Origin: a virus
IMG/VR virus record: IMGVR_UViG_3300011113_000316
Location: 1-48,689 of that record
Length of the DNA: 48,689 bases
Reading direction: 5' to 3' (one strand)
Shown: piece by piece, positions 23,665 to 48,689 of the stretch
How positions within the stretch are numbered: the first letter of the stretch is position 1
Layout of the letters: the number at the start of each line of letters is the position of its first letter
Notes under the pieces: model-generated
Told to the model about the DNA's origin: nothing
The model's input: the letters and a program-made list of their open reading frames with translations, nothing else
The model's database searches: none
Position numbers and translations under genes: made by a program

Positions 23665-23672
23665 CTAAATAC

Positions 23673-23700
23673 TTGACAAATCGATTGTATAATTTATACT
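23673..23700 (+). promoter_or_regulatory. Sigma70-like promoter of the sugar island
   Basis: Consensus -35 TTGACA, 16-nt spacer and -10 TATACT. A GCGAGG Shine-Dalgarno follows, 5 nt from the ATG of the GT25 gene. It implies transcription of the island by host RNA polymerase, early or middle in infection. Confidence 0.7.
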
Positions 23701-23715
23701 TGTTGCGAGGTTTTT

Positions 23716-27946: not shown

Positions 27947-28842
27947 AAGTATTGGTAACTGGTGGTTGTGGTTTTATTGGAAGCCATTTAGTTGATGCGC
28001 TAGTCGATAAAGGGCATCAAGTAATTGTTGTAGATGATTGCTCTGCTAACAATGAAAAATTTTATTTTAATGATAAAGCAGTTTATCATAAAGTTAGCAT
28101 CTGTGAAGCAGATAAATTGACAAAATTATTTAAAAATTGTGAATTTGTATTTCATCTTGCTGCGGAGTCTAGATTACAAGATTCAATAAATAACCCTCGC
28201 AGGACAGTGGCCGTCAATGTTATGGGTACTTTGAATGTTTTAGAGGCATGTGTAGAAAATAAAGTAAAGGGGATTTTATTTTCTTCCACATCTTCTGTTT
28301 ATGGACTCACAGAAGAGTTGCCAATAAAAGAAACTTTAAAAGAAGATTGTCTCAATCCGTATGCAGCAACAAAGTATTCTGCTGAATTGCTGATAAGAAA
28401 TTATACAAAACTTTATAAATTAAAGAGTTGTATATTCAGATATTTTAATGTTTTTGGTGAAAGAGCCCCAACTACAGGCCAATATGCTCTTGTTACTGGT
28501 ATTTTTCTACGTCAAATTAAAAATAACCAACCACTAACAATAGTGGGAAATGGTTTGCAGGAAAGAGATTTTATATACGTAAAAGATATTGTAGATGCAA
28601 ATATAATATCGATGGAAAATTGGGATAAAACAGAGGAATTGACACAAGCAAATATTTTTAATATTGGTAGTGGATATACAGTAAATATAATAACATTGGC
28701 AAAAGCAATTAGTGATAATTATGTTTTTATACCGGAAAGAAAAGGAGAAGCAAAAAATAATCTCTCCTGTTCTAAAAAATTTATGGAATTGACTGGATGG
28801 AAACCAAAAACAAAAATACTGGAATGGATTAAAAATTTTTGA
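27943..28842 (+). CDS. NAD-dependent sugar epimerase/dehydratase (GalE-like SDR)
   Basis: 299 aa extended SDR. GGCGFIGSH at 7-15 binds NAD(P); FHLAAES at 70-76; SSTSSVYG at 114-121; catalytic Tyr140 and Lys144 in NPYAATKYSAE; and RYFNVFGERAP, typical of UDP-hexose 4-epimerases and WbpP-like enzymes. It probably epimerises a nucleotide-sugar for one of the transferases. Substrate (UDP-Glc, UDP-GlcNAc or activated heptose) is not decided by sequence. Overlaps the preceding gene by ATGA. Confidence 0.8.
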   Translation: MKVLVTGGCGFIGSHLVDALVDKGHQVIVVDDCSANNEKFYFNDKAVYHKVSICEADKLTKLFKNCEFVFHLAAESRLQDSINNPRRTVAVNVMGTLNVLEACVENKVKGILFSSTSSVYGLTEELPIKETLKEDCLNPYAATKYSAELLIRNYTKLYKLKSCIFRYFNVFGERAPTTGQYALVTGIFLRQIKNNQPLTIVGNGLQERDFIYVKDIVDANIISMENWDKTEELTQANIFNIGSGYTVNIITLAKAISDNYVFIPERKGEAKNNLSCSKKFMELTGWKPKTKILEWIKNF

Positions 28843-28851
28843 GATATTTAT

Positions 28852-29757
28852 ATGATTATTACAGAAATATATAATGGCCAAGGTTTAGGGAATCAAATAG
28901 CATGTTATGTTACAACAAGAGTTGTTGCAAAAGATAAAGGCTGTGATTTTGGAATAATGAATCCCCATAAATTTAAGGGTAGTTCATTTATGAACTTGGA
29001 TATGGGTTTGCCAGTAATTGGCGGAGAGGGTCCCGAAGGAGGTCCACCAACAAGACTACCGGAAGGTATTAAGTATTATTTTAGAGAATGGTGGGAAAAG
29101 CACAGGCTTCCTGATGGTTCTAACATCATGTTAGATGATCCCGGCCTAGAACAAATTCAAGACAATACAAAAATCGACGGTGTACTTCAATCTGAAACAA
29201 GAATAATACATAGAAAAGATGAAATAAAAGAATGGCTTAAAGTTGATAAAGATAAGGACAATTACAATTATTCTGATGAAGATACTTGTATATTGGCTTT
29301 TAGGGGTGGAGAATACAAATATGTACCTCAATTCTTTTTAAGAAAAGAATATTGGATTGATTCTGTAAACCATATGTTAAAGATCAATCCAAAATTTAAA
29401 TTTGTAGTTGTAACAGATGATCCAGAATGTGCAAGAGCATTTTTTCCGCCTAGTTTTCATGTCACACATTCTGAAATTTGGAACGACTACACTATAATAA
29501 AAAATGCTCATTATTTAATATCATCAAATTCAAGTTTTCCATATTTTCCAACCTTGACAAGTGATACATTAAAATATGTTCTAGCACCAAAATATTGGGC
29601 AAGACACAATATATCTGATGGTTATTGGTCGTGTGGATACAACATTTATAGAGGGTACAATTATGTTGATAGGGAAGGAAAAGTGTCTTCTTATGAAGAT
29701 TGCGTAAAAGAATTTGAAGATTATAAAAAGAAAGTAAGTTATTATGAAAACGTATGA
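28852..29757 (+). CDS. Putative GT11-like glycosyltransferase
   Basis: 301 aa. The N-terminal GQGLGNQIACYVTTRVVA (residues 10-27) follows the GT11 pattern 'G~GLGNQ~~~ya~~r~~a'. A CILAFRGGEY segment takes the place of HxRRxD. HYLISSNSSFPYFPTL with a following VLAPKYWARHN matches the C-terminal donor region. The HxRxGD motif is therefore degenerate (FRGGEY), so a different donor or acceptor is likely. It begins 9 nt after the epimerase and overlaps the GT17 gene by 14 nt. Confidence 0.6.
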   Translation: MIITEIYNGQGLGNQIACYVTTRVVAKDKGCDFGIMNPHKFKGSSFMNLDMGLPVIGGEGPEGGPPTRLPEGIKYYFREWWEKHRLPDGSNIMLDDPGLEQIQDNTKIDGVLQSETRIIHRKDEIKEWLKVDKDKDNYNYSDEDTCILAFRGGEYKYVPQFFLRKEYWIDSVNHMLKINPKFKFVVVTDDPECARAFFPPSFHVTHSEIWNDYTIIKNAHYLISSNSSFPYFPTLTSDTLKYVLAPKYWARHNISDGYWSCGYNIYRGYNYVDREGKVSSYEDCVKEFEDYKKKVSYYENV

Positions 29758-30505
29758 TGCATTTATATTTTATAATGAGCTCGATGTTTTAGAAATTCGT
29801 CTTAATATTTTAAATGATTATGTTGATTATTTTGTCATAGGTGAATCAATAGAAACATTTAGGGGAAATGATAAACCTTTATTTTATCAAGAAAATAAAG
29901 AAAGATTTAAAAAATTTAATGATAAAATAATTCACTGTGTAATAGGAAAATTGGGAGAAGATCAAGAAATTTTACAAAAATCTTTGTCTAGTCCCAATAC
30001 AGGAATAACTTCAAAAGATCATTGGTGGGTTAGAGAATTTTATCAAAAAGAATATATGATAAAAGCTTTAACAAATGCAGCAGATGAAGATAATATATTT
30101 GTTTCTGATACAGATGAAATATGGAATCCAAAAATTAAAAAAACAGTAATAGATGATACTGTCTATAGACCGATACAGACTGCTTATCCTTTTTATCTTA
30201 ATAATAGATCTAATCAGCACTGCAATGCGTGGGTTGGAACTAGATTTGGAACAGTAAAAAAATTAAAACAACATGGTTTTAATCATTTTAGAACTGAGAG
30301 AGAAGTCAGAAGCATTCCAATTTTAAATGGTGGATGGCACTTTTCTTGGCAAGGACAAACAAATTGGAATAAATGGAATGATGGTCATCCAGGTAATCAA
30401 GAAAACTATTTTTTATTAAAACAAACGGACATGTGGAAAGATGAATCTGAATTGCCTGAGTATTTAATTCAAAATAAAGAAAAATGGAAGCATTTATTTT
30501 TATAA
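29744..30505 (+). CDS. GT17-family glycosyltransferase (N-acetylglucosaminyltransferase-like)
   Basis: 253 aa. GT17 signature: YDAFIFYNELDVLEIRLNIL at 4-23, VDYFVIGESIETFRGNDKPL, SDTDE at 121-125 as the metal-binding DxD, and NGGWHFSW near 200. The eukaryotic family member is the bisecting GlcNAc transferase MGAT3; phage and bacterial members are less well studied. It is the last gene of the first transcription unit: an AT-only inverted repeat covers its stop codon and a new promoter follows. Confidence 0.82.
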   Translation: MKTYDAFIFYNELDVLEIRLNILNDYVDYFVIGESIETFRGNDKPLFYQENKERFKKFNDKIIHCVIGKLGEDQEILQKSLSSPNTGITSKDHWWVREFYQKEYMIKALTNAADEDNIFVSDTDEIWNPKIKKTVIDDTVYRPIQTAYPFYLNNRSNQHCNAWVGTRFGTVKKLKQHGFNHFRTEREVRSIPILNGGWHFSWQGQTNWNKWNDGHPGNQENYFLLKQTDMWKDESELPEYLIQNKEKWKHLFL

Positions 30506-30525
30506 AAAACTTGACTTTTTTATAA
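30500..30525. repeat. 10-bp A/T inverted repeat over the GT17 stop and the next promoter
   Basis: TTATAAAAAA and TTTTTTATAA flank CTTGAC, so the -35 of the downstream promoter lies in the loop. It could be a weak bidirectional terminator or a regulator-binding site. Confidence 0.55.
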
Positions 30526-30538
30526 CACATATTATAAT
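30511..30538 (+). promoter_or_regulatory. Sigma70-like promoter of the second sugar-gene unit
   Basis: TTGACT, 16-nt spacer, perfect TATAAT. The -10 ends 11 nt before the GT2 ATG; no Shine-Dalgarno is evident. It divides the island into two transcription units. Confidence 0.72.
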
Positions 30539-30549
30539 ATATTCTTCTA

Positions 30550-31239
30550 ATGAAGTTATCAGTAGCAATACCAGTATATGAATGTCATGGTTTGGGATGG
30601 TTATACTTATCCGAACTGCTGAATAGCATATCAAAACAATCATATAAAGATATTGAAGTTGTCATCAGTGATCAAAGCACTGATGACAATATTTTTAATT
30701 TGTGTTCATGTTACAAAAATTATATGGATATAAAATATGTTTCTGGTCATAATTTAACTAGAAGCAATTCACCTAACGTAAACAATGCAATTAAGAATTG
30801 TTCAAGTGATAAAATTAAAATAATGTTCCAAGATGATTTTTTTATTGATCCAGATGCAATTAAAAAAATTGTTTTAAAATTTAATGAAGGTGCAAAATGG
30901 ATTGTATCTGGTTGCGCACACTCTAAAAATATACACCAATTGTACAATCCAATGATACCTTATTATAATCATTCTATGCTAGATGGTATAAATACAATTA
31001 GTTCACCAAGTGTTTTAGCCATAGATGGCAAAGAATTTTTTGATGAAAAATTAGTTATGATGATGGACTGTGAAATGTATCATAGATTGTATAAAAAATA
31101 CGGTGAACCTACTATAATACAAGATATACTTGTATGCAATCGCATACACGATAAACAATTACAGAACCAAAATCAAGATAAATTGTCTAGTGAAATTATT
31201 TACTGCAAAGATAAACATAAGGAGCTTCTAAATGCGTAA
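30550..31239 (+). CDS. GT2-family glycosyltransferase
   Basis: 229 aa. GT-A fold signs: LSVAIPVYE at the N-terminus, SISKQSYKDIEVVISDQSTDD at 27-46 (family 'sl~~Qty~~~Ei~VvDdgStD') and MFQDDFF at 92-98 as the metal site. It is compact, with no membrane segment, so a cytoplasmic enzyme. A perfect 12-bp inverted repeat lies about 110 nt into the gene. First gene of the second island transcript; overlaps the dehydratase gene by 8 nt. Confidence 0.78.
   Translation: MKLSVAIPVYECHGLGWLYLSELLNSISKQSYKDIEVVISDQSTDDNIFNLCSCYKNYMDIKYVSGHNLTRSNSPNVNNAIKNCSSDKIKIMFQDDFFIDPDAIKKIVLKFNEGAKWIVSGCAHSKNIHQLYNPMIPYYNHSMLDGINTISSPSVLAIDGKEFFDEKLVMMMDCEMYHRLYKKYGEPTIIQDILVCNRIHDKQLQNQNQDKLSSEIIYCKDKHKELLNA
30659..30689 (+). 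repeat. Perfect 12-bp inverted repeat inside the GT2 gene
   Basis: TTGTCATCAGTG and CACTGATGACAA with a 7-nt loop, followed by TATTTTTAA. In RNA this would be a stable hairpin before a U-rich tract within the coding sequence. Confidence 0.75.
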
Positions 31240-32230
31240 AAGAATGTTAGTTACTGGTGGTTGTGGTTTTATTGGTCATCATATGGTAGAGTACTTACTC
31301 ACTAATAGCGACCATGATATCGTAATCGTTGATAGATTGGATGTTTCAGGAAATTTAAATCGTTTAACAGAATTGCCAATTTGGCAAACAGAAAATAAAC
31401 GCGTCACATTTGTATGGCATGACATGAAGGCCGAAATGCATCAGAATGATGTATTAAAAAGCCAAATTGGACCAATAAATACAGTTCTCCACATTGGCGC
31501 ATCTTCTCACGTAGATAGATCTATCGAAGATCCACTTCTGTTTGTAATGGATAACGTAGTTGGAACTTGCAATATTTTAAACTTTGCACGTAAGCAAGAC
31601 AATTTAGAAAATTTTGTTTATTTTTCTACAGATGAAGTATTTGGTCCAGCCCCAGATGGAGTAAATTACAAAGAAAATGATAGATATAATTCTGGAAATC
31701 CATACGCTGCTAGCAAAGCGGGTGGCGAGGAGTTGTGTGTATCTTTTGAAAATACCTACAAGATGCCAATTATGATCTCTCACTGCATGAATGTATTTGG
31801 CGAAAGACAGCATCCAGAAAAGTTTATTCCAATGTGTATCAAGAATTCTTATACTGGGGCAAAAACCTACATTCATTCAAATAAAACTCTTACCAGAGCA
31901 GGAAGCAGATTCTATATCCACGCAAAGAATGTGTGCAGTGCCGTAGACTTCCTACTAAAGAATGGAAAGAGTGGAGAAAAATACAATATTGTTGGTGAAA
32001 AAGAAGTAGATAATCTAACTCTTGCAAAAATGATTAGCCAATTTGTTGGAAAAGATCTAAATTATGAGTTAGTAGATTTTCATAGCAGCCGTCCGGGCCA
32101 TGATTTAAGATATGGTCTAGATGGAACCAAGATGGCAGAACTGGGATGGGTTCCAAAAAATAACTTGGAACAATCTTTACAGAATTTGGTCGAATGGTCT
32201 TTGCAAAATAAAAAGTGGATTGGTCTATGA
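31232..32230 (+). CDS. Nucleotide-sugar 4,6-dehydratase (RmlB-like)
   Basis: 332 aa extended SDR. GGCGFIGHH at 9-17; ASSHVDRSI at 90-98; the dehydratase hallmark FSTDEVFG at 131-138 with Asp134 and Glu135 (absent from simple epimerases); Tyr158 and Lys162 in NPYAASKAGGEE; and SRPGHDLRYG near 290, a stretch typical of dTDP-glucose 4,6-dehydratase. The product would be a 4-keto-6-deoxy sugar nucleotide, the substrate of the aminotransferase encoded next. AAGGAG lies 7 nt before the ATG. Confidence 0.88.
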   Translation: MRKRMLVTGGCGFIGHHMVEYLLTNSDHDIVIVDRLDVSGNLNRLTELPIWQTENKRVTFVWHDMKAEMHQNDVLKSQIGPINTVLHIGASSHVDRSIEDPLLFVMDNVVGTCNILNFARKQDNLENFVYFSTDEVFGPAPDGVNYKENDRYNSGNPYAASKAGGEELCVSFENTYKMPIMISHCMNVFGERQHPEKFIPMCIKNSYTGAKTYIHSNKTLTRAGSRFYIHAKNVCSAVDFLLKNGKSGEKYNIVGEKEVDNLTLAKMISQFVGKDLNYELVDFHSSRPGHDLRYGLDGTKMAELGWVPKNNLEQSLQNLVEWSLQNKKWIGL

Positions 32231-32233
32231 TTT

Positions 32234-33388
32234 ATGGAAAAAGCAGTAATTCCTTTATTTAAAGTTCATATGTCCCAGGCTGCAATAGATGAAACAGCCA
32301 AAACATTAGCCTCTGGATTTGTTACTCAAGGGCCTAAAGTAGATTTATTTGAAAAAGATTTGTGCAATTATTTAAATTGCACAAATCTTTTAACTACTAA
32401 TACGGGAACTTCGGCTTTACACTTGGCCATACATTTGCTAAAAACACCCAATAAAGATAATGGATGGCCTGGAATAAATCCAGATGATGAGATTTTAACA
32501 ACACCTCTTACATGCACTGCTTCAAATTTTCCAATTTTAGCAAACAATGTAAAACTAAAATGGGTGGATATAGACCCGAGTACATTAAATATGGATTTAG
32601 TTGACTTGGAAAGAAAAATAACAAGTAAAACTAAAGCAATATTAGCAGTGCATTGGGGAGGATATCCATTAGACTTAAATGCACTAAAAGAAATTCAAAA
32701 AAGATGTAAAGAAAAATATGGATACGCACCAATCATAATTGAAGATGGTGCACATTCATTTGGTACAAAGTATCATGGACAATTTCTTGGAAACCATGGA
32801 AACATGGTAATGTACAGCTTCCAAGCAATTAAACATCTTACATCAGTTGATGGGGGGGCGCTTGTCGTTCCAGATACTGAGTTGTTTAATAGAGCAAAAT
32901 TGCTTCGTTGGTATGGTATCGACAGAACAACAAATAGAAAAGATTTTAGATGTGAAGATGATATCCCAGAATGGGGATACAAGTTTCACATGAACGATGT
33001 AAATGCCACAATTGGTATTGAAAATCTAAAAGTAGTTGATTCTGTAATAAATAAACACCAATCGAATGGAAAATACTATGATACAAATTTATGTAATGTA
33101 AATGGTGTTAAAACTTTGACACGACATGAAGGACACGATTCCGCATTTTGGATTTATAGTATGTTGGTGGAAGATAGAGATAATTTTATGAAGCATATGA
33201 AGTCGTGTGGGGTTATTGTATCTCAAGTGCACGAAAGAAATGATAAACATAGTTGTTTAAAAGAATACAAGACTTTCTTGCCAACTTTAGACTCTACAAT
33301 AGGTAAAGTAGTTTCAATACCAGTTGGCTGGTGGGTAAATGATGAAGATCGATCCTATATCGTGGATTGCATCAAAAAGGGGTGGTAA
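32234..33388 (+). CDS. DegT/DnrJ/EryC1-type sugar aminotransferase (PLP)
   Basis: 384 aa. PLP-fold features: TNTGTSALHLAIHLL at 55-69 (phosphate loop), TTPLTCTASNFPIL, VDIDPSTLNMD, IIEDGAHSFGTKY with Asp171, and SFQAIKHLTSVDGG, whose Lys200 should form the internal aldimine. Such enzymes aminate the 4-keto (or 3-keto) position of dTDP/GDP/UDP-6-deoxyhexoses, e.g. VioA or perosamine synthase types. Dehydratase before and acetyltransferase after make a three-step route to an N-acylated amino-dideoxy sugar. A perfect 17-bp inverted repeat lies within the first 160 nt. Confidence 0.9.
   Translation: MEKAVIPLFKVHMSQAAIDETAKTLASGFVTQGPKVDLFEKDLCNYLNCTNLLTTNTGTSALHLAIHLLKTPNKDNGWPGINPDDEILTTPLTCTASNFPILANNVKLKWVDIDPSTLNMDLVDLERKITSKTKAILAVHWGGYPLDLNALKEIQKRCKEKYGYAPIIIEDGAHSFGTKYHGQFLGNHGNMVMYSFQAIKHLTSVDGGALVVPDTELFNRAKLLRWYGIDRTTNRKDFRCEDDIPEWGYKFHMNDVNATIGIENLKVVDSVINKHQSNGKYYDTNLCNVNGVKTLTRHEGHDSAFWIYSMLVEDRDNFMKHMKSCGVIVSQVHERNDKHSCLKEYKTFLPTLDSTIGKVVSIPVGWWVNDEDRSYIVDCIKKGW
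32353..32391 (+). repeat. Perfect 17-bp inverted repeat inside the aminotransferase gene
   Basis: AAAAGATTTGTGCAATT and AATTGCACAAATCTTTT with the 5-nt loop ATTTA. It is fully within coding sequence (residues about 40-53). A perfect match of this length is very unlikely by chance. Confidence 0.88.
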
Positions 33389-33391
33389 TAA

Positions 33392-33952
33392 GTGAAGCAT
33401 GATATTCATTCTATAATTGAAAAAGGTATAGATCAGTCTTTGATTTGTATAAAAAAGATTGATACACAAAATGATAATTTTATAGATGAAATAAAATTTA
33501 TAAATTTAATTAGAAATGAATATGCTGAAGATTATCTTCATAGTAGTAAAAAATATTCTGTAAATGAAACTTTTAAATGGTTTTTTAAAAACTTTCCAGA
33601 ATACTACATAATTTATTATTCACAAATTCCCGTTGGATATTTTAGAACATCAAATTATTCAACAGAAAACAATAACATTTATATTGGGGCAGATATACAT
33701 CCAGATTACTGTGGATTAAAATTAAGTTATAAATCATATATTAAATTTATTGATCAATTGTTTGAAGAAAAAAAATTACACAAAATATCACTGGAAGTTT
33801 TATCCTCAAATACAAGAGCTTTAAATTTATATAAAAAACTTGGTTTTGTAATCGAAGGAACACGAAGACAAGAAGTATTAAAAAAAGATGAATACGTTGA
33901 TTCTATAATAATGTCAGTTTTAAAATCGGAATGGAAAGAAAGGCAGATTTAA
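33392..33952 (+). CDS. GNAT-family N-acetyltransferase
   Basis: 186 aa from a GTG start preceded by AAGGGGTGG. GNAT features: IPVGYFR near 79-85, a degenerate acetyl-CoA loop HPDYCGLKLSYKSY at 103-116, and LEVLSSNTRALNLYKKLGF at 134-152, the conserved motif B. It resembles RimJ/RimL-type and sugar N-acetyltransferases. Directly after the aminotransferase it would acetylate the new amino group, as in the VioB or FdtC steps, although those are often left-handed beta-helix enzymes. The 3' end overlaps the next gene by 22 nt. Confidence 0.78.
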   Translation: MKHDIHSIIEKGIDQSLICIKKIDTQNDNFIDEIKFINLIRNEYAEDYLHSSKKYSVNETFKWFFKNFPEYYIIYYSQIPVGYFRTSNYSTENNNIYIGADIHPDYCGLKLSYKSYIKFIDQLFEEKKLHKISLEVLSSNTRALNLYKKLGFVIEGTRRQEVLKKDEYVDSIIMSVLKSEWKERQI

Positions 33953-34725
33953 CTGTGGAAGAAAAAAAATTTTTAATTTTATTGTTTTATTATAATCGTC
34001 CAGAGATGGTTAAGAATGCTCTTCAAACAATAATTGATTTAAAATATTCAAATTATGAAGTAGCATTTATTGATGATAGTAGTCAAGTGTGTGGTAAAGA
34101 AGTATGTAAACAATTTTTGCCGGAACACATCTTCAAAAAGTTTAAATTTTATAATACAAATCAAACAATAGAACAAAAAAGACAACAAAGCATTGGTAGA
34201 AAATATGGAGGTAGCATTTTTGGAAAATGCGCAAATGACGCGATAGTGGAATCCGATGCTGATTATGGGATAATGTTATGCGACGACGATGCAATAATAG
34301 ATGATTATCTATTTAATCTAAACAATTACTTTTTACATAATCCAGATGTAAATTATTGTTACAGCAAAGTCTTATTTTTTGATCCATCTAAAGAACATTA
34401 TAAAAATGGAAGAGATAATAGCAACTTCTTTGATGGTGGTGGCTACACGGCAATAAACACAAGAGTTGGAGCAATATATCCGGTTGCATCTGTAGATGCT
34501 TCTCAAGTATGTTGGAAACTTTCTTGCAATAAAGAAGGTGGTGTGTGGTTCCCTTATCCAAGAACAGTATCATTGGATATGGTTTTATTTGAACAACTGT
34601 ATTATAAATATGGTGCATGTCAGCCAACAAATTTTTTTGGTGAATATAAAGCCTTGTTTTGTGACTCTTTGGGAAGCAGATGGTCAAATTCAAGAGAAAA
34701 TGAATATGTTGTTTCTATAAAATAA
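33931..34725 (+). CDS. GT2-like glycosyltransferase (GT-A fold)
   Basis: 264 aa. LILLFYYNRPEMVKNALQTI at about 15-34 followed by YEVAFIDDSS, and IMLCDDDAIID near 114-124 as the DxD-type metal site. The C-terminal part (GVWFPYPRTVSLDMVLFEQL) is like other phage GT2 proteins. The listed ATG lies inside the acetyltransferase gene; an in-frame GTG at 33955 just after that gene's stop, with GAAAGG upstream, is an equally good start. Acceptor unknown. Confidence 0.7.
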   Translation: MERKADLTVEEKKFLILLFYYNRPEMVKNALQTIIDLKYSNYEVAFIDDSSQVCGKEVCKQFLPEHIFKKFKFYNTNQTIEQKRQQSIGRKYGGSIFGKCANDAIVESDADYGIMLCDDDAIIDDYLFNLNNYFLHNPDVNYCYSKVLFFDPSKEHYKNGRDNSNFFDGGGYTAINTRVGAIYPVASVDASQVCWKLSCNKEGGVWFPYPRTVSLDMVLFEQLYYKYGACQPTNFFGEYKALFCDSLGSRWSNSRENEYVVSIK

Positions 34726-34736
34726 ATGAGAGAAAT

Positions 34737-35327
34737 ATGAATATAATTGAATCTTTTTATAATTCTTTGTCCGCACACCCATCAGATATCAATGAACATT
34801 TGCCGACTTTGAAAAAGTACGCAGAAAAATGTGATCATGTAACTGAAATGGGAGTAAGGTATGTTGTTTCAACAATAGCATTGGTTTGTGGAAAACCAAA
34901 AACTTTAATTTCTATAGATTTATTTCATCCATCACACTATGGTGATATGGGAAGATTGAATCTTGTTCAAGAGTATTCAAAAAACAACAATATAGATTTT
35001 AAATTTGTGTTAGGTAATACTCTTGAAATAGATATTGAACCCACAGATCTTTTATTCATTGATACTCTGCACAAATACGGCCAATTAAAGAAAGAATTGG
35101 AAAGACATGCAAAAAATGTAAAGAAGTATATTGTCTTCCATGATACTACTACGTTTGAATATAAAGATGAAGGCGAATACTATGAAACAGACGGTCTCAG
35201 CAATGAAAAGGTAGGACTGTGGCCAGCCATTCAAGAATTTATTGAAGCAAATCCAGAATGGTCTATTTTAGAGCGTTTTACTAATAATAATGGGCTTACA
35301 ATACTTCACAAACAAGAAAACGTGTGA
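34737..35327 (+). CDS. Methyltransferase-like protein (Methyltransf_24 / CmcI type)
   Basis: 196 aa Rossmann-type fold: VTEMGVRYVVSTIALV (motif I, 'vvEiGv..G.St'), KTLISIDLFHP (acidic end of strand 2), NTLEIDIEPTDLLFIDTLHKYGQLKKEL with the IDTLHKYGQ segment ('fIDg.H.Y..~~~Dl'), and YIVFHDTTTF. These are the marks of macrocin/rhamnosyl O-methyltransferase-like enzymes. Sugar O-methylation fits its position at the end of the island. A GAGAG precedes the ATG by 5 nt. Confidence 0.68.
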   Translation: MNIIESFYNSLSAHPSDINEHLPTLKKYAEKCDHVTEMGVRYVVSTIALVCGKPKTLISIDLFHPSHYGDMGRLNLVQEYSKNNNIDFKFVLGNTLEIDIEPTDLLFIDTLHKYGQLKKELERHAKNVKKYIVFHDTTTFEYKDEGEYYETDGLSNEKVGLWPAIQEFIEANPEWSILERFTNNNGLTILHKQENV

Positions 35328-38680: not shown

Positions 38681-38965
38681 ATGTTCAGAGGAAAATTTAA
38701 ATTTAAATCTGCTACTGGAATACCTTTTACCTATTCCAATGGAGATGTGGTATTATACGAAGGTAAAGTTTATAAAGCAAATAATACAACACAAAATAGT
38801 CCAATACAGTCAGCAAAGGACTGGGATTATCTTAGTTTAAGTGAGCCATATAGAGGAACATATCCTCCGGTGAATCCAAAAGAAAATCAAATTTGGATTT
38901 CTGATGACGGTATATCGTATATTTATTTTTATGATGGAAATTCATATCAATGGATTTCTACTTGA
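38681..38965 (+). CDS. Small virion-type protein with CBM5/12-like domain
   Basis: 94 aa. SNGDVVLYEGKVYKANNTTQ then KDWDYL is the pattern of chitin-binding CBM5/12 modules ('Y~~Gd~V~y~gk~y~a~~~t~~~~P~~~~~W~~l'), common at the ends of phage fibres. The C-terminal ENQIWISDDGISYIYFYDG repeats an aromatic strand motif. With its own late box, it is probably a virion decoration or fibre-associated protein inserted between gp46 and gp45. Carbohydrate binding is inferred. Confidence 0.6.
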   Translation: MFRGKFKFKSATGIPFTYSNGDVVLYEGKVYKANNTTQNSPIQSAKDWDYLSLSEPYRGTYPPVNPKENQIWISDDGISYIYFYDGNSYQWIST

Positions 38966-40783: not shown

Positions 40784-41166
40784 TGAAACTGGGAGATTTT
40801 TTAGCCAGTATCAATTACGACAAGAAACCCCTGCTGGATAAGGACGAATCCGCTACTCGCCTTTATCCACCATTTGTCGTCAATAGATGTCTATCATATT
40901 TTGTGGATACAATCTTTCATTCGAACGAAATGAATTGTGTCCCGTGGTTGGACAATAAGAGCCAGTTTGATTTTCATCGCCTTTCTATTCGTAAAAAAAG
41001 GCGTTTTTCTAACTGGGTTAAAAAAGAGGTAGAAGACGATATTGATCTGATAAAACAGGCTTATGGATACTCAGACCGCAAGGCTAGAGAAGTCCTAAAT
41101 ATACTGGGACCGCAAGATTTGGACCAAATAAGAAGGTCGCTATATAAAGGCGGGACCGATAAGTAA
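40783..41166 (+). CDS. gp62: Clamp loader small subunit gp62
   Basis: 127 aa, shorter than T4 gp62 (187). The conserved N-terminal part LGDFLASINYDKKPLL, the LYPPFVVNRCLSYFVDTIFHSNEMN block and a basic RKKRRFSNWVKK helix are diagnostic. It overlaps gp44 (TGATG), so translation is coupled as in T4, where it sets the 4:1 subunit ratio. Confidence 0.9.
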   Translation: MKLGDFLASINYDKKPLLDKDESATRLYPPFVVNRCLSYFVDTIFHSNEMNCVPWLDNKSQFDFHRLSIRKKRRFSNWVKKEVEDDIDLIKQAYGYSDRKAREVLNILGPQDLDQIRRSLYKGGTDK

Positions 41167-41172
41167 ATAAGG

Positions 41173-41185
41173 ATTTGTTATGTCT
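41173..41185 (+). promoter_or_regulatory. RegA-type translational operator over the regA start
   Basis: The initiation region contains TTGTTATGT, identical over nine bases to the core of the RNA selected by T4 RegA (UUGUUAUGU), placed across the ATG. It implies autoregulation of regA as in T4. Confidence 0.55.
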
Positions 41186-41605
41186 GATGCTTCTAAGCGT
41201 GTTTTTAATGATGTTGGAGTACATATAAAATTATTTGACGACGAAGATTTTATGGTCGTCAGAGAGACCCTAACAAGAATGGGTGTCTCGCCAAAAGGCA
41301 AAAATATATTGTACCAGTCCTGCCACCTTGTTCACAAAGATGGCGTTTATGTCGTTGCACACTTTAAAGAACTATTTGCGTTGGATGGTCTTCCATCAAA
41401 TGTTTCGACAGAGGACATTCAACGTAGAAATTCTATTGTAAAATTATTGGAAGACTGGGATTTGCTTGAGGTCATTGATAAAGAAAAAATCAAGGACCAA
41501 ATGCCACTCACAGGAATGAAGATAATTAAGTATGGAGAAAAGGATAATTGGGAATTGATTCCCAAGTTTAATCCGGGAACTTTGCGTAAATTTTTTAATT
41601 CATAA
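41180..41605 (+). CDS. regA: RegA translational repressor
   Basis: 141 aa (T4 RegA: 122). VGVHIKLFDDEDFMVVRETLTRMGVS, then NILYQSCHLVHKDGVYVVAHFKELFALDG, is the characteristic RegA core; the VV.HFKELF..DG stretch is nearly invariant. RegA binds ribosome-initiation regions of early mRNAs. It follows gp62 in T4 order, with an AAGGAT Shine-Dalgarno and a RegA-like site on its own start. Confidence 0.92.
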   Translation: MSDASKRVFNDVGVHIKLFDDEDFMVVRETLTRMGVSPKGKNILYQSCHLVHKDGVYVVAHFKELFALDGLPSNVSTEDIQRRNSIVKLLEDWDLLEVIDKEKIKDQMPLTGMKIIKYGEKDNWELIPKFNPGTLRKFFNS

Positions 41606-41613
41606 GGATGACT

Positions 41614-42852
41614 ATGTATAATTTGACTTTGAGTATGATTGTTAAGAATGAGGCTCCAAATATTCAAACTTGTTTAGAGTCTGTCGCACCGTATATTGAT
41701 TATTATATTATTTGTGATACTGGATCAACCGATAATACTAAAGAGATAATCAAAAACTTTTTTGATTCTAAAGGAATTCCCGGAGAAATCCATGATCAGG
41801 AGTGGGAAGACTTTGGAACAAATAGATCCAAAGCATTGAAATTATGCCACGGAAAAACACAGTGGGCATTGATGATTGATGCTGATGACTTCATTACAGG
41901 TAAATTGCCAGTAGAAAAGTTTGATAAAAATGTAGATGGATACGTTGTTCAAATTAAAAGAGGATCTTTTTCTTGGGCACGAGCACAAATATTCAACTTA
42001 GGTAAAAAACTTTGGTGGTATGAAGAGCCATTGCATGAATATGCAATTTGCGAACAGCCTATGAATATTTTAAAACTTGAGGGAGATTATGCATGGGAAG
42101 TTAGAACAGCAGGATGTCGCTCAAGACAATTTGCAGACGATATAGAAAAGTATAAAAACGATTATGCTGTATTAAAAAAGCATCTTGAAAAAGATCCAAA
42201 TTCACATAGAAAACAATTTTATGCAGCACAATCAGCATTTGATGCCAGAATGTTTGATGTTGCAGAAAAAGAATATTTAAGAAGAATTGAAATGGGTGGG
42301 TGGGATGAAGAAGTTTTCTTCTCTTGGCTTAGAATTGGAATTTGCAGAGAACTTCTTGAAAGGTCATTAACAGAAGTCTCAGATGCATTTATGATGGCAT
42401 ACGAAGTCAAACCAAATAGGGCTGAACCACTATATCATTTATCCTGTATTTATAGAAAACACAATAGAAATAGAAACGCATTTTTGGTAGCATCACATGC
42501 ACTATCAATACCCGTTCCACAAAATGAAATTTTATTTGTTGATCATGGAAATTATAATTGGGGCATTTTAGATGAAATAGCAACTACAGCATTTTATGCT
42601 GGAAGAATCCATATGGGATTAGCAGCATGTGAAAAATTGTTATCAGAGCCCTACTTACCAGATGATCAAAGACAACGGGTTCATTCAAATAGAATGTCTT
42701 ATATGAAAGCCGTTGAACAGATACAAAGTCAATTAAATAATCAACAATTTAATTCACTAAAAATTGTCCAAGAGGCTGCAAAAAAGGTAGAAAATACAAA
42801 AGTTAAGACTACTTTAGACATTGATCCCGAAAAAATTGCTGTAAAACTATAA
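41614..42852 (+). CDS. GT2 glycosyltransferase with TPR-like helical C-terminal half
   Basis: 412 aa. N-terminal GT-A domain: LTLSMIVKNEAPNIQTCLES, DTGSTDNT at 35-42, ALMIDADDF at 85-93. The second half is helical repeats (HRKQFYAAQSAFDARMFDVAEKEYLRR, then EPLYHLSCIYRKHNRNRNAFLVASHAL), like the TPR portions of protein glycosyltransferases of the SunS type. The ATG at 41614 was chosen over 41608 because AAGGA lies 6 nt before it. It stands directly upstream of the late fibre operon, suggesting a fibre or virion protein as acceptor (inference). Confidence 0.72.
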   Translation: MYNLTLSMIVKNEAPNIQTCLESVAPYIDYYIICDTGSTDNTKEIIKNFFDSKGIPGEIHDQEWEDFGTNRSKALKLCHGKTQWALMIDADDFITGKLPVEKFDKNVDGYVVQIKRGSFSWARAQIFNLGKKLWWYEEPLHEYAICEQPMNILKLEGDYAWEVRTAGCRSRQFADDIEKYKNDYAVLKKHLEKDPNSHRKQFYAAQSAFDARMFDVAEKEYLRRIEMGGWDEEVFFSWLRIGICRELLERSLTEVSDAFMMAYEVKPNRAEPLYHLSCIYRKHNRNRNAFLVASHALSIPVPQNEILFVDHGNYNWGILDEIATTAFYAGRIHMGLAACEKLLSEPYLPDDQRQRVHSNRMSYMKAVEQIQSQLNNQQFNSLKIVQEAAKKVENTKVKTTLDIDPEKIAVKL

Positions 42853-42864
42853 GTTAATTTTTAG

Positions 42865-42872
42865 CCTAAATA
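42865..42872 (+). promoter_or_regulatory. Late promoter-like box CCTAAATA for the fibre operon
   Basis: CCTAAATA ends 6 nt before the ATG at 42879. The context TAAATATTTGTAA.ATG resembles that at the late box at 38666. Confidence 0.45.
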
Positions 42873-42878
42873 TTTGTA

Positions 42879-43274
42879 ATGGCTAAAGAGCAGGACATTA
42901 TAGTTGTAAAAGGAGATACTGCCAGATGGTCGTCATTTATATATGACGAAACCACTGGCAGTACTTTTAATTTTACTGATTGTAATATTTACATGCAAGT
43001 TAGAAATGGTTATTATCAATCTCCTTTAGTTGCAGATTATTCAGTTGCAGGTGTGACATACTCTGGAGTAGCAAATATTAATGGTGTAACGGGGGGAATA
43101 TCCGTTTCCAGCAGTGGTTTATTGTCTATGTGTATAGGTTCATCCCAGTCAAACGAATTGTCATTGAATCGTGTATGTAAATATGATGTAAGAGTTCATA
43201 ATAAAAATACTGATGATTATATAACAATATTAAAAGGAAACATACAAGTATTACCTGAAATAACAGATACCTAA
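42879..43274 (+). CDS. Putative fibre-module structural protein (upper-baseplate-like domain)
   Basis: 131 aa. [21 protein letters not shown] at the start, [17 protein letters not shown], and [28 protein letters not shown] at the end are the pattern of short beta-sandwich domains ('i~v~kGDT~~~~~~i.d..G~~~dlt~~~~~~~vr', 'Y~v~~~~~~~~~~l~G~~~v') found in phage baseplate and fibre-attachment proteins. Overlaps the collagen-like gene by 1 nt. The role in fibre attachment is inferred from context. Confidence 0.5.
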
Positions 43275-45403
43275 TGTTTTTTGGAAAGAATAAAAATTCT
43301 CTTAAACTAATAAAGCAACACCCAGAATTGCTGATGGGTGCGACTTATCATATTACAGATCCAACACCGGATGCTAAAAGAGTAAAAATTGGTGCTGGTA
43401 TCACAGAACTTTATGTTCGTAATGATGACGGTGAAGTATATCTCATAGAAGGAAATGCAACAAAAATTAAAGATATGTTCCAAGCAGTATTGCTGTTTGA
43501 GAATATGGAAGGTGAAATCTATAAATTAAAACGGCCTGTTGGATCTTTGTTGCAAAATGTTCTTCTAAAAGAAATAAATGCTCTAACAGCGGATGAAAAA
43601 ATTTATGTTGGAAATGGTATTACTGAGAGATACTTTATAGAAAAGTCCAACAGCAGAGTCATTAAGTTTATAGGTAACTCTACCCAAATAAAGAATCTTG
43701 TAGAAAAAGTAGAACTACCAAAACCAATAGAACCAAAACCAGTTGTAAAAATTATTGAAAAGCCTGTAGTACAATTACAGGAAAAAATAATTATAAAAGA
43801 GACCACGCCAGTTGTTGGAGCGCAAGGTCTTCGTGGCGAGAAAGGTGAGCAAGGTCCGCAAGGTGAACGCGGCCCAATGGGTCCACAGGGTCCAAAGGGT
43901 GAAAGAGGTCTCCAAGGTGAGCGCGGTGAACAGGGCCCACAAGGCCCCAAAGGCGATCACGGTGAACCCGGTTTGCAGGGCATTCGGGGCCCGAAAGGAG
44001 ACAGAGGTGATAAAGGAGATCAAGGAATTGCTGGTCCACAAGGTCCTATGGGCTCTCAAGGTCCTCAAGGACAACAGGGAGAAAAGGGCGAAGATGGAAG
44101 CCCGGGTGAGATTGGTCCGCAAGGTCCAATGGGCCCTAGAGGAGATGAAGGCCCGCAAGGCCCTGAGGGACCACAAGGACCACAAGGATTAAGAGGATTT
44201 AATGGTCTTCAAGGACCTCCGGGACCACAGGGCCCCCAAGGATTGCAAGGACCAGAGGGTCCAGCTGGCGAATCTCCAGTAGTAGAAGCACAATATCCTT
44301 TAAAATTAGAGGATGGAATTCTGTCATTTGATTCGGAACAAGTATCAAAAGTTCTTGATAAATTCAAAAATGATGATATTCAAAAAGCCATAAATCAAAT
44401 GGCTCAAATGACAACTCCTGCTGGCGGTGGAGCAGTTGATGTTGCATTGAACGGCAATAAAATTATTCGCTCAGTAAATACAATGAACTTTATTGGTGAT
44501 AATATTACAATCACCAGAAGAAGAAAAAATGTAGATATTTCAATAGCAGGCGGTTCGGGTGGTTCAGGTGGTGGTACTGGTGGCATTTCCTCGGTAAACG
44601 GTATTTCTGGTGATACTTTTGGAAATGTAAATGTAAAAAGTTTAATCAATGGAACTTCTGTACTTAGTCTTGGAGCAACAGGAAGCGTATTTCTACCCAA
44701 TGGTAGTAGGATTGCTGATGCTTATGGTGATGGTGGTATAAGTCTAGTTGGTCTAGTTGGGGCAACTGGTAACTACGCAGGAATAGTCAGCGGTGATTTG
44801 AATCAATTTGTTGTTTCTACTCCCGATTTCGTTCAAATTGGAACAGACTATACTGGTATTGGTTATAGTTGGAACTTTGATAAGAATGGCGTGTTATCGT
44901 TACCGGGTTATATTACATTTCCAGATGGCAGTACTCAAGGAACTGCTCCTTCAAAGTTCTTTTATAGGGCAACCTCTCCTTCTGGTGTGACTCAAGGTGA
45001 TCGTTGGATGGATTCTGATACTGGTAAGGAATATGTTTACATTAATGATGGAAACAGTACTCAATGGGTGCAACCTACTAGTGGAGGTGCAGTTCCATCT
45101 AATATTTCAATATTAAATACAACATCTGTCACTGGTTCTACTTATTATGCTCTTGCAACGGATTACTACATCGGAGTTAGTTATGCTGGACCAGTTACAA
45201 TAACTCTTCCAACAAACCCAGAAACAGGTCGTGAGATTGTTGTAAAAGATGAATCTGGAAATGCTGGAAACGGAGTCAACAGACAAATTACGATCACCGG
45301 AGCCACCGCATCAGACAAAATTGACAATCAAAGTTCTGCAATAATAAATCTAGACAATGCCGGGTTGCATTTCATTTATAGAAATGGATGGAGAATAATA
45401 TAA
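43274..45403 (+). CDS. Collagen-like fibre protein
   Basis: 709 aa. Residues 1-150: two related beta units ([20 protein letters not shown] and [21 protein letters not shown]). Residues about 182-334: uninterrupted Gly-X-Y repeats rich in GPQ, GPK, GER and GEK, predicted to form a trimeric collagen helix. Then a Ser/Gly-rich middle and a C-terminal beta domain ([24 protein letters not shown] ... IYRNGWRII) seen at the tips of many phage fibres. The triplets here are Pro/Gln/charged rather than Thr-rich, unlike the second collagen-like gene. Stop overlaps the next start (TAATG). Confidence 0.82.
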
Positions 45404-46638
45404 TGTCATACTTATTCAATGATTTAGTAGGTTTCAAGGGAAATGCCGTAGATGCATTTAATCGTCTTAAAGTTAGTAATCCCTTTACATTGTTTGATAG
45501 CCAACAACGATATGTCTTGAGTGATAAGTGGGATTATGTAGGTCTTAGCGGTGGTACATATTCTTTTAATCCTACAGAAAGTACCGTATCGCTTACATCA
45601 GGTCTTACGAATGGTTCAAAGATGTATGTGGAAACAAAGAAAGTATTTCCATACCAACCCGGAAAATCTTTGACGATTGTAGATACATTTGCGATGGCTC
45701 AACCAAAAACTGGTTTACGCCAGAGGGTTGGTTACTTTGGAATAACTGGCGGTGTTACAGCGGCCACACCATATAACGGTGTGTACCTGCAACAAGACGG
45801 CCTGACATTATCAATATGCTTGGCTTCCGCTTCACTTAACACAACTCAAACAATACCACAGTCAAGTTGGAATGCCGACCCATTTGATGGATCTGGACCG
45901 TCTGGAGTAACAATTAATGTAACAAAAGGAAATATTTTTTGGATGGATGTAGAATGGCTTGGTGTCGGTGATGTAAGAACTGGATTTTTTATAGATGGCA
46001 GACCCGTTGTTGCACATACATTTTATAATGCTAATAAAAATTCCACAACTTACATGACAACGGCATGTCTACCTTTACGATATGAAATTGAAAATACTGC
46101 TGGTCAAACAGGCAGCAGCACAATGCGGCAAATTTGTTCTACAATATTGTCCGAAGGCGGATATGAAGGATTTACCAGAAGATACAATATAACTCATAGC
46201 GGAGCCACTTTTGACAATCTGGCACTTACAGGAGTACAATATCCAATAACGGCCATAAGACTAGCTTCAGATAGATTGGACAGCATCATTGTACCATCAA
46301 ATATCAGCGTAGCAGTAGAGCCGGGAATAAACAACAAACCGCAAGTTGTGCAGTACAGAATTTTATTAAATCCGACTTTGACCGGAAATACTTGGACAAC
46401 ACACTACAACGGAAATGTTCAATACAATGTTACCGCCACTGCAGTAACAGGTGGAACTGATATTATTGGTGGTTATATCAGCAGCAGCGGAACTTTGGAT
46501 TTGTCAAGCGTAAATGATTTTAATTTTCAGTTAGGCAGAACACAGTTGGGAGTTAGCGATACCTTTGTACTGACTATGGTTCCTACGGTAGATGATACAA
46601 AGGTTTATGCAGATCTTTCTTGGTTCGAAATCATATAA
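45403..46638 (+). CDS. Putative fibre-associated virion structural protein
   Basis: 411 aa from an ATG overlapping the previous stop, with GGAG upstream (an in-frame ATG 15 nt earlier is less likely). It opens with FKGNAVDAFNRLKVSNPFTLFDSQQRY, a motif I know from structural proteins of marine phages. The body is beta-rich with Gly/Thr repeats (GNIFWMDVEWLGVGDVRTGFFIDGR). The function is unassigned; its position between collagen-like fibres points to a fibre or adhesin component. Confidence 0.6.
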   Translation: MSYLFNDLVGFKGNAVDAFNRLKVSNPFTLFDSQQRYVLSDKWDYVGLSGGTYSFNPTESTVSLTSGLTNGSKMYVETKKVFPYQPGKSLTIVDTFAMAQPKTGLRQRVGYFGITGGVTAATPYNGVYLQQDGLTLSICLASASLNTTQTIPQSSWNADPFDGSGPSGVTINVTKGNIFWMDVEWLGVGDVRTGFFIDGRPVVAHTFYNANKNSTTYMTTACLPLRYEIENTAGQTGSSTMRQICSTILSEGGYEGFTRRYNITHSGATFDNLALTGVQYPITAIRLASDRLDSIIVPSNISVAVEPGINNKPQVVQYRILLNPTLTGNTWTTHYNGNVQYNVTATAVTGGTDIIGGYISSSGTLDLSSVNDFNFQLGRTQLGVSDTFVLTMVPTVDDTKVYADLSWFEII

Positions 46639-46641
46639 ATA
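46634..46641 (+). promoter_or_regulatory. Late promoter box TATAAATA in the fibre module
   Basis: Perfect late consensus spanning the previous stop codon; a CGGAG Shine-Dalgarno and the ATG follow after 18 nt in all. Confidence 0.65.
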
Positions 46642-46659
46642 ATAAGTACGGAGATTATA

Positions 46660-47001
46660 ATGGCACTTCAAAAAGCGTTTACACATACAGCAGGAATCAC
46701 TATGGACTATTGGAGGATTGTAAAGGTTGATACCGATTATAATATCCAAAGTGGAACAATTTTAGTATATGGATATCTGAATCAAGCATCGAGAGATGCT
46801 GGTAATGGTCATCTCGGATACAAGACTGTTCGTTTTAACAACAATGAAAATGCAGAAGTTCCAGCACTTGACAAAGTTTTTGATAACTATTTTGCCATTA
46901 CGAAAATTAATGAAAATGATAAAAATCCAGTAAAGAATGCTTATGAATTTTTAAAATCAATACCAGATGGAGAATTTTTAGGGGCATTAGACGTAATATA
47001 A
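46660..47001 (+). CDS. Small fibre-module protein of unknown function
   Basis: 113 aa, not recognised with confidence. Beta-rich N-terminus ([25 protein letters not shown]) and a helical C-terminal part ending in [18 protein letters not shown]. Similar small proteins accompany fibre genes in T4-like aquatic phages. Starts a late transcript that should also carry the second collagen-like gene. Confidence 0.55.
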
Positions 47002-47005
47002 TAAA

Positions 47006-48689
47006 ATGGCATTAGATTTTCCAACATCACCATCTGTAAATCAGGTCTACACATACAATGGGTATTCGTGGATTTGGGATGGTTTCTCTTGGAATTCATA
47101 TACACCAGCTGTAACTAATCTTGTAAATACAATAAATGGAATTACTGGTGATATTGGTCTAGCCGCCGGTACTAGTATTTCTATAACTCCATCTGGGAAT
47201 ACATTTACAATTGCTTACACTGGTGGTGGCGGTGGTGGTTCTGGAGGAATTGGAAATACGGGAGCCACTGGAGCAACCGGAGCAACTGGTCCTCAAGGTC
47301 CTCAAGGAAATACTGGAGCGACTGGTGCCCAAGGCCCTCAAGGAAACACTGGTGCCACTGGTGCCCAAGGCCCTCAAGGAAACACTGGTGCCACTGGTGC
47401 CCAAGGCCCTCAAGGAAACACTGGTGCAACTGGAGCACAAGGTTTACAAGGAAATACAGGACCGGTCGGAAATTATATTATTTCTCTAAACGGCCTTACT
47501 GGAAGTTTGGGTTTATCTGCAGGATCAAATATTCAAGTATTTTCTTCTGGAAATACTTTAATAGTATCAGCATTAGCATCTGGTGTTAGTGGGTCAATTC
47601 AATATAAAGATTTTAATGGCGGATTTAGTGGATCGCCTTCATTTTTATACGGATCTTATGGACTCACATTAACATTTTTTGATCCAAACGATCCATATAA
47701 TCTTGGAACAAATTTTTCAATATTAACAGCAAACACAACTAGTCCATCTGCAACTGTTGTATTAAAAACTGGTAATACTTATGGAAATCAAGGCAGTGCT
47801 CTCCAAATAGATAGCGGAAATATATCTATAGGAGATCTTTATAATTCTTGGTTAAAGCCTTCCTCTTGGCAAGTATATTTGAGCCCAGAAGAAAATTTTG
47901 CAGGAATTTATACTTCCGGTGGAAATTTTGATTTTGTTACAGCAAACTTTAATGTAGGTGCTTCTCCAAATATTGGTGCGGGACTTCTTGGAACTATAAT
48001 ATTAACATCAAATACGGGTGGTATACAGTTAAACCAAAACAATGCCGGAAATATTGAAATAAATCAATATGGTGTAGATGATATCTACATCAATAAATTC
48101 ACAACAGGAGGGTATCTATCATTAACCAATCCTCAATCAGAACTTAGAATGGGTGATTGGGATGGATGTTGTGATGGAATGTTTGTTAAACTTCATGATT
48201 CATCTTTAGTCCAACCACACTTAGGTAGTTTCAGAGTTGGTGATTGGTATTCTGGAAATGTATTAGAAATAACAAACACTGCAGGAGCATCCGGGTCTTA
48301 TGTATATCTTAGACCTGCCAGCGGTGTGATTGTAGAATCGGGAGCAACCTTCATAGGAAACATAAATGCTCCAAATATTGTAAATTATGTAAATGGACTT
48401 ACGGGGTCATTAAATTTTGTTGGTGGAACAGCCATAGGAATAACCTATTCTGGTAAGACTTTTACTTTTTATTATACGGGATCTGGTATAGTCGGAGCTA
48501 CTGGAGCCACTGGTGCCCAAGGCCCTCAAGGAAACACTGGTGCCACTGGTGCCCAAGGCCCTCAAGGAAACACTGGTGCCACTGGTGCCCAAGGCATCCA
48601 AGGAAACACTGGTGCCACTGGTGCCCAAGGCATCCAAGGAAACACTGGTGCCACTGGTGCAACTGGTGCCCAAGGCATCCAAGGAAACA
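47006..48689 (+). CDS. Thr-rich collagen-like fibre protein, 3' end outside window
   Basis: At least 561 residues with no stop before the right edge. A short N-terminal beta unit ([18 protein letters not shown]) is followed by a [13 protein letters not shown] segment and a first Gly-X-Y block built of [12 protein letters not shown] units. A beta-rich region of about 350 residues follows, then another NGLTGSLNF segment and a second Gly-X-Y block continuing past the end. Thr occupies the Y position in GAT and GNT triplets, as in bacterial collagen-like glycoproteins. The modular order beta-NGxTG-collagen is thus repeated twice. Likely a trimeric receptor-binding or decorating fibre. Confidence 0.8.
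47315..47458 (+). repeat. 36-bp coding tandem repeats, first block
   Basis: Four 36-bp units encoding [12 protein letters not shown] or close variants; the second and third are identical at DNA level. Preceded by one more diverged unit. Confidence 0.9.
48503..48689 (+). repeat. 36-bp coding tandem repeats, second block (continues off window)
   Basis: At least five units of the same 36-bp family. One is identical in DNA to units of the first block 1.1 kb upstream; later units read GIQ in place of GPQ, and one has an extra GAT triplet. Confidence 0.9.

Follow-up and report, generated by a model that had tools for sequence, protein, structure and literature searches.

In Clostridioides difficile, the glycosyltransferase gene sgtA lies directly upstream of bclA3, and its product has a GT-A domain with four tetratricopeptide repeats (TPRs). 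In vitro, SgtA adds beta-O-linked N-acetylglucosamine (GlcNAc) to Thr of peptides from the collagen region, and the glycoprotein signal is gone from sgtA mutant spores (PMC7157674). Here, we describe a gene of similar design, GT2-TPR, in the 48,689-base linear contig of IMG/VR record IMGVR_UViG_3300011113_000316 – the window, analyzed at its full length – in which it precedes genes for the collagen-like fibres COL1 and COL2 and is accompanied by a large island of sugar genes. We propose, with a probability of about 0.6, that this phage glycosylates its own collagen-like fibres, GT2-TPR initiating on Thr of COL2 and the island extending the glycan.

The collagen-like region of Bacillus anthracis BclA is also glycosylated, Thr being the acceptor and anthrose part of the glycan. 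The window is similar in its candidate Thr acceptors within a collagen-like region and in the class of its sugar enzymes, but its aminotransferase resembles PseC and is not a conserved gene in relatives. Mimivirus combines collagen-like proteins with a GT25-related enzyme and has an O-methylated 4-amino-4,6-dideoxy sugar of its own, although it is a eukaryotic virus whose L230 collagen glucosyltransferase acts on hydroxylysine (PMC9614988), whereas Thr and GT2-TPR are proposed here. Mycobacteriophage virion proteins carry glycans (Freeman 2023, as cited in PMC12619734), which that source places on capsid and tail tube subunits, in contrast to the collagen fibres considered here. Pelagimyophages, which are also T4-like aquatic phages, encode glycosyltransferases beside tail-fibre genes; the passages on these genes in PMC7029224 read them as modifiers of the host O-chain and describe no link between a GT2-TPR and collagen.

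GT2-TPR and its genomic neighborhood

The GT2-TPR gene (41608–42852; like all features given here, on the forward strand) encodes a 414-amino-acid protein, the proposed initiating collagen-fibre O-glycosyltransferase; the earlier note on this DNA had begun it at 41614, which is the second ATG of the open reading frame. It is assigned to family GT2 by Pfam PF00535 (52 bits), and an AlphaFold2 model (predicted local distance difference test score, pLDDT, of 93) consists of a GT-A domain and helical repeats. Among 36 homologues D91 of the DXD-type motif is invariant, and A92 and D93 are nearly so. This arrangement, a GT-A domain with a DXD-type motif followed by TPR-like helices, is that of protein glycosyltransferases such as SunS, GmaR and SgtA. 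Sequence matches in the PDB are to GmaR, SunS and ThuS, and a Foldseek search with the model ranks SunS/ThuS best over the full length (E 1.6e-15, the next other enzyme at 2e-7), with 15–18% identity in the structure alignments. GT2-TPR reaches 38 bits against the cut-off of 350 for the SunS family (NCBIfam TIGR04195), and is a non-member with a related fold. Judged by sequence and model, its nearest solved relatives are protein or peptide glycosyltransferases: SunS and ThuS, close in both fold and sequence, are peptide S-glycosyltransferases of glycocin cysteines, and GmaR, close in sequence, is a flagellin GlcNAc transferase (PMC9638930), whereas we propose collagen Thr as the phage acceptor.

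The likeness to SgtA/BclA3, with SgtA taken from its published description, is one of architecture and gene order. A GT-A domain precedes TPRs in both enzymes (358 amino acids in SgtA, 414 in the phage protein), and in both the transferase gene is upstream of one or more Thr-rich collagen-like genes. SgtA serves a bacterial spore protein with GlcNAc from the cell pool, whereas the phage gene follows RegA and is accompanied by a large sugar island. By analogy, the phage system would work in the same manner.

A scan with a GT2-TPR alignment recovered 79 phage loci, including the window's clade (63–85% identity in GT2-TPR) and a second, more distant group (45–50%). In about 65 clade loci GT2-TPR is a core gene between RegA and the collagen fibres. 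The gene for RegA, a translation repressor (41180–41605; phrog_242, E 3e-46), ends 2 nucleotides before GT2-TPR in the window; it directly precedes GT2-TPR in 64 of 65 clade loci, with a 2-nucleotide gap in 55. Collagen genes lie downstream in 42 of the 43 clade loci with at least 5 kb on that side, and the 43rd has Pfam collagen hits. A transferase gene adjoining a Thr-rich collagen gene, as in SgtA/BclA3, is thus found here too, with four genes separating GT2-TPR from COL2 in the window. In the second group (L007/G032, L278, L282–285 and L290) sugar genes are directly upstream of GT2-TPR – placed between RegA and GT2-TPR in G032 and L290, where RegA is in view – and collagen fibres follow downstream in most loci, contiguous with the sugar genes. 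Island, GT2-TPR and fibres are therefore neighbors in two arrangements. Among phages with a DegT-containing island, collagen is present in 3 of 8 records with GT2-TPR versus 4 of 40 without, a co-occurrence that is suggestive only. One related lineage (L286, L287, L291 and L292) has dUTPase-like, methyltransferase-like and DNA-polymerase-like genes after GT2-TPR.

Cellular homologues were collected from a bacterial-genome scan and profile searches, giving 33 genomes in all. In 12 of these, a collagen gene lies within 1.5 kb of the homologue, mostly Thr-rich and in Bacillaceae and Actinomycetota; Gly-X-Thr (GXT) accounts for 70/90, 63/64 and 91/101 triplets in Bacillus and relatives, 38/38 in Mycobacterium, and 91/100, 35/57, 25/49 and 52/95 in Actinomycetota, among others. 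The PGRS-like Gly repeats of Mycolicibacter were left out of the count as false collagens. None of 17 random 20-kb stretches, drawn from part of these genomes, holds a collagen gene. On a tree of the homologues the collagen-neighbor label is scattered, with at least six changes forced on well-supported branches, so that the association has been gained or lost repeatedly. In addition to these cases, a Neobacillus contig (L304) has a collagen-type C-terminal domain truncated by the contig end, and a Chlamydiae-like metagenome-assembled genome (L301) and a Mycobacterium (L312) have at least two neighboring GT2-TPR-like genes or parts of them.

Threonine in the collagen-like fibres

COL1 (43274–45403) and COL2 (47006–48689) both exceed Pfam's collagen cut-off (PF01391, E 1.6e-17 for COL2). 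COL1, which also matches PHROG tail fibres, gave no tblastn match against named phages; COL2 resembles cyanophage tail fibre proteins over its first 49 amino acids and is incomplete, because the fibre genes reach the contig edge. The 51 Gly-X-Y (GXY) triplets of COL1 (43817–44275) contain no Thr. COL2 has 50 such triplets (28 in 47225–47476 and 22 in 48485–48682), of which 24 (48%) have Thr in Y and none has Thr in X; the 14 Gly-Ala-Thr (GAT) and 10 Gly-Asn-Thr (GNT) triplets bear out what the earlier note had reported for the second fibre. Published means for Thr in Y are 8.9% in viral collagens and 48.3% in Gram-positive collagens (PMC3368898), placing COL2 at about five times the viral mean and equal to the Gram-positive one.

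The same pattern extends across relatives, in comparisons that rest on few independent lineages. Clade collagens downstream of GT2-TPR have Thr in Y in 3185 of 8389 triplets (38%) and in X in 364, and records carrying a distant GT2-TPR have Thr in Y in 110/275, 39/54 and 9/65. Sugar-island phages without GT2-TPR have it in 164 of 3275 (about 5%), our own sum over collagen-like and Gly-Ser/Thr-Ser repeat proteins, which becomes about 8% once these repeats are excluded. Tandem GT2-TPR genes go with fibres that are 90% GXT (272/301, 294/323 and 597/657 in L229, L230 and L238), but these are apparently near relatives and count as one event, and a tie between Thr content and GT2-TPR copy number was rejected. 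Three sugar-island phages without GT2-TPR (L381, L382 and L395) encode giant Gly-Ser-Ser/Gly-Thr-Ser repeat proteins of up to 2642 amino acids adjoining GPI-rich collagen-like proteins, possibly another type of glycosylated fibre.

The fibre operon also contains a small gene (42879–43274; phrog_1084) that comes next after GT2-TPR in nearly all relatives, a virion structural protein gene (45388–46638; phrog_1645, E 5e-95) and, ahead of COL2, another small gene (46660–47001; phrog_5084). Outside it, a small gene at 38681–38965 has homologues fused to collagen repeats in some relatives (213 triplets, 101 of them GXT), as in L256 (the w45 homologue, 1148 amino acids) and L187 (11923–12432), which suggests a fibre domain that recruits new shafts.

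Promoters and the sugar island

The window reads as a T4-like myophage from its gene order (gp25, gp6, gp17–gp23, UvsW, UvsY, gp55, gp47, gp46, gp45, gp44, gp62, RegA), in which some names lack a profile match and are ones we assume from gene order and general knowledge. Its gp23 shares about 52% identity with cyanophage capsid proteins and 74–86% with those of many uncultured contigs. In the T4-like phage Aeh1 the late promoter is CTAAATA (PMC1524935), and the window has this motif ahead of gp22, gp23, UvsW, the island and the fibre operon. Overall, the window contains no excess of this 7-mer (10 observed versus 14 expected), so only its conserved places count as promoter evidence. One is at 42866–42872, 13 nucleotides ahead of the fibre operon, where a late-type motif recurs in 30 of 33 relatives. 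Some relatives (e.g. L232, L263 and L250) have a hairpin and T-run between this motif and the operon, which would sit in the leader of the late transcript; neither was found in the window's 26-nucleotide gap upstream of the operon. Because GT2-TPR starts 2 nucleotides behind RegA and a late-type promoter (in relatives also the hairpin) intervenes before the fibres, it is read as belonging to the RegA unit and lying outside the fibre operon; its description as directly upstream of that operon holds for the position, but operon membership is not supported.

A further CTAAATA, at 41095–41101 within gp62, is the proposed late promoter of the GT2-TPR unit and lies 85 nucleotides ahead of RegA–GT2-TPR. 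Its Leu-Asn codons are CTA AAT in 54 of 54 distinct genes, usually 84–86 nucleotides before RegA–GT2-TPR, whereas elsewhere in gp62 CTA is used in 13% and AAT in 67% of cases, and the Val codon preceding the motif varies freely. Such codon conservation argues strongly that the DNA sequence itself functions as a signal, the simplest candidate being a late promoter that would time RegA and GT2-TPR to virion assembly. A composite promoter (23665–23705) precedes the island, with CTAAATA directly ahead of the sigma-70 hexamers TTGACA-N16-TATACT. Its counterpart in relatives, a late-type motif and then TTGACA/T-N16-TATATT/TATAAT, is present at 25 of 26 distinct island starts. Early and late promoters are known to overlap in RB49 and S-PM2 (PMC2984593).

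The island (23716–35327) varies widely in gene content among relatives. In the clade it sits between UvsY and the late sigma factor gp55, about 6 kb from GT2-TPR, with gp55, gp47/46 and clamp genes intervening. In the window, it begins with genes for a GT25-like glycosyltransferase (23716–24366), a GT11 glycosyltransferase (24363–25154; PF01531, 77 bits), an HddA-like GHMP sugar kinase (25151–26089; PF00288; NCBIfam HddA 72 bits, below cut-off), an S-adenosylmethionine-dependent methyltransferase (26086–26724; PF13489, 52 bits), a GmhA-like SIS isomerase (26724–27230; PF13580; TIGR00441 70 bits, below cut-off), a HAD-type phosphatase fused to a heptose-1-phosphate/glycerol-phosphate nucleotidyltransferase-like domain (27230–27946; PF01467; phrog_7878 and phrog_1238) and a nucleotide-sugar epimerase/dehydratase (27943–28842; PF01370, 203 bits). 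These are followed by a second GT11-related glycosyltransferase (28852–29757; phrog_2644, E 1e-9), GT17 (29744–30505; PF04724, 76 bits) and GT2 (30550–31239; PF00535, 52 bits) glycosyltransferases, a sugar-nucleotide 4,6-dehydratase of dTDP-glucose type (31232–32230; TIGR01181 274 bits, cut-off 365; copies 79–81% identical in several relatives), a PseC-like DegT sugar aminotransferase (32234–33388; PF01041, 245 bits; PseC 210 bits, below cut-off), a PseH-like GNAT N-acyltransferase (33392–33952; PF00583; PseH 47 bits, below cut-off), another GT2 glycosyltransferase (33931–34725; PF00535, 31 bits) and a possible methyltransferase (34737–35327; PF13578, E 0.003, below cut-off).

Judged by these enzymes, the products would be a 4-amino-4,6-dideoxy N-acyl sugar and a heptose. 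The earlier note had described a pathway to an anthrose-class sugar with sugar methyltransferases; dehydratase, PseC-like and PseH-like genes are indeed present, although none is above its NCBIfam cut-off, and one methyltransferase (26086–26724) is clear and the other doubtful. The GmhA-like, HddA-like and heptose-1-phosphate nucleotidyltransferase-like (RfaE-C-like) genes were absent from that account, and with them present a heptose and an anthrose-like sugar are equally likely. Anthrose in particular is not supported: only some related records have a DegT gene, neither the aminotransferase nor the acyltransferase is a conserved gene in relatives, and the heptose branch is present; an anthrose-like identity of the sugar is no more than a guess.

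A GT25-like gene heads the island at 14, and a GT11 gene at 13, of 22 distinct island starts, one of which is not a true start. The window's GT25-like protein falls short of the Pfam PF01755 cut-off (21.9 of 24 bits, over 36 residues), but it combines an EDD motif (E81-D82-D83, invariant in 20 homologues) with a predicted fold that Foldseek matches best to Mimivirus R655 and human COLGALT1 (a collagen galactosyltransferase), then to a bacterial beta-1,4-galactosyltransferase. The earlier assignment to GT25 is thus upheld by predicted fold; the fold is compatible with a role on collagen, but since GT25 also covers lipopolysaccharide (LPS) enzymes, it does not discriminate between fibre and LPS. 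A simple hydropathy scan found no transmembrane segments in the 15 island proteins, and found them in 2 of 162 in relatives. With no such segments, and no GtrA flippase or polytopic Gtr family in Pfam scans, O-antigen conversion of the Gtr type was rejected.

Proposed self-glycosylation of fibres and its alternatives

In the mechanism that we infer – from enzyme activity and acceptor to the identity of the sugars, the service of the island to the fibres and the benefit to the phage – cytosolic GT2-TPR would use its TPR domain to bind the still unfolded fibre chain and would add the first sugar to Y-position Thr of Gly-X-Thr (GAT and GNT in COL2), like SgtA on BclA3. Extension and capping with unusual deoxy-amino sugars, heptose or both would then fall to the island, through its soluble glycosyltransferases, its sugar-nucleotide enzymes and its methyltransferase, and the phage may gain stiffer fibres, masking or a change in adsorption. 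Glycosylation of collagen-fibre Thr by GT2-TPR has good inferential support. The dedicated virion-glycosylation system suggested by the earlier note gains from synteny, cellular neighborhoods, SgtA/BclA3, folds, Thr in Y, promoters and the lack of membrane proteins, whereas anthrose as its sugar and membership of GT2-TPR in the fibre operon are not supported.

Several observations weigh against this interpretation. Single-copy GT2-TPR also accompanies giant fibres poor in GXT (21/674 and 3/476), and L286, L287, L291 and L292 keep GT2-TPR behind RegA with no collagen in contigs of up to 46 kb. Most cellular homologues have no collagen neighbor, including those of Chlamydiae, one planctomycete, the majority of mycobacteria and seven genomes of Bacillaceae, so that the family must also act on other acceptors, and some collagens beside cellular homologues are moderately Thr-rich only (16/45 and 29/67). 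Thr in Y also stabilizes unmodified bacterial collagens (PMC8968730). The island is less well supported as the source of the sugars, its one link to the fibres being synteny, and its conserved sigma-70-like promoter means that it may act early on the host.

Such early action would suit the main rival for the island, remodeling of the host envelope (LPS core or O-antigen) against superinfection, with GT2-TPR as another envelope glycosyltransferase that is near the fibres by accident. This is how PMC7029224, where it treats such genes in pelagimyophages, interprets them; LPS synthesis typically involves GT25, GT11, GT17 and heptose genes, and the island is hypervariable as O-antigen loci are. 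However, a late-type motif is conserved at the island start as well, the island lacks a flippase, a polymerase, a Gtr-type membrane transferase and membrane proteins of any kind – which does not count against soluble LPS-core transferases, as these would need no membrane spans – and GT2-TPR resembles protein glycosyltransferases and adjoins collagens across phyla. We consider this account of the locus unlikely, while noting that envelope modification may coexist with fibre glycosylation. A mixed use, in which GT2-TPR puts a host-supplied sugar such as GlcNAc on the fibres and the variable island serves the host envelope, has a lesser but appreciable chance: GT2-TPR belongs to the core, while the island varies and lies some distance away in the window's clade, and UDP-GlcNAc alone suffices for SgtA (PMC7157674), but sugar genes are contiguous with GT2-TPR and fibres in more distant relatives. 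The probabilities of these readings overlap with that of fibre self-glycosylation because mixed use shares its first step.

The many glycosyltransferases of the window could instead decorate hydroxymethylated bases of the phage genome, DNA hypermodification being well known in T4-like phages. We rejected this as very improbable, as 20 related records, fragmentary although several are of 117–157 kb, contain no thymidylate-synthase/hydroxymethylase family member and no Tet/JBP dioxygenase above cut-off. It is also improbable that the fibres are unmodified and Thr in Y merely stabilizes a triple helix that lacks hydroxyproline. The Gram-positive average of 48% Thr in Y (PMC3368898) fits this explanation, and glycosylation is not known for most prokaryotic collagens (PMC8968730, PMC3368898); yet the figures are about 9% for viral collagens (PMC3368898) and about 5% in the sugar-island phages without GT2-TPR, and the conserved GT2-TPR would be left unexplained.

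Aquatic T4-like phages commonly carry sugar islands, which are routinely interpreted as host-LPS modifiers. The association, in the same genomes, of a core protein glycosyltransferase with collagen fibres, together with a proven bacterial analogue, provides an alternative reading, in which phages coat their own fibres. If true, this would account for the sugar genes being abundant and hypervariable at once, extend virion glycosylation to fibres, and define a new family of enzymes that glycosylate collagen Thr and connect phages with Bacillaceae and Actinomycetota. Because island contents are swapped while GT2-TPR and the fibre site persist, relatives would bear different fibre coats. More tentatively, at somewhat below even odds, a large uncultured clade of T4-like phages may have two-layer fibre glycosylation, with a core initiating enzyme and swappable sugar cassettes that set a 'virion serotype'; if so, many genes now called LPS auxiliary genes in aquatic phages would actually decorate virions.

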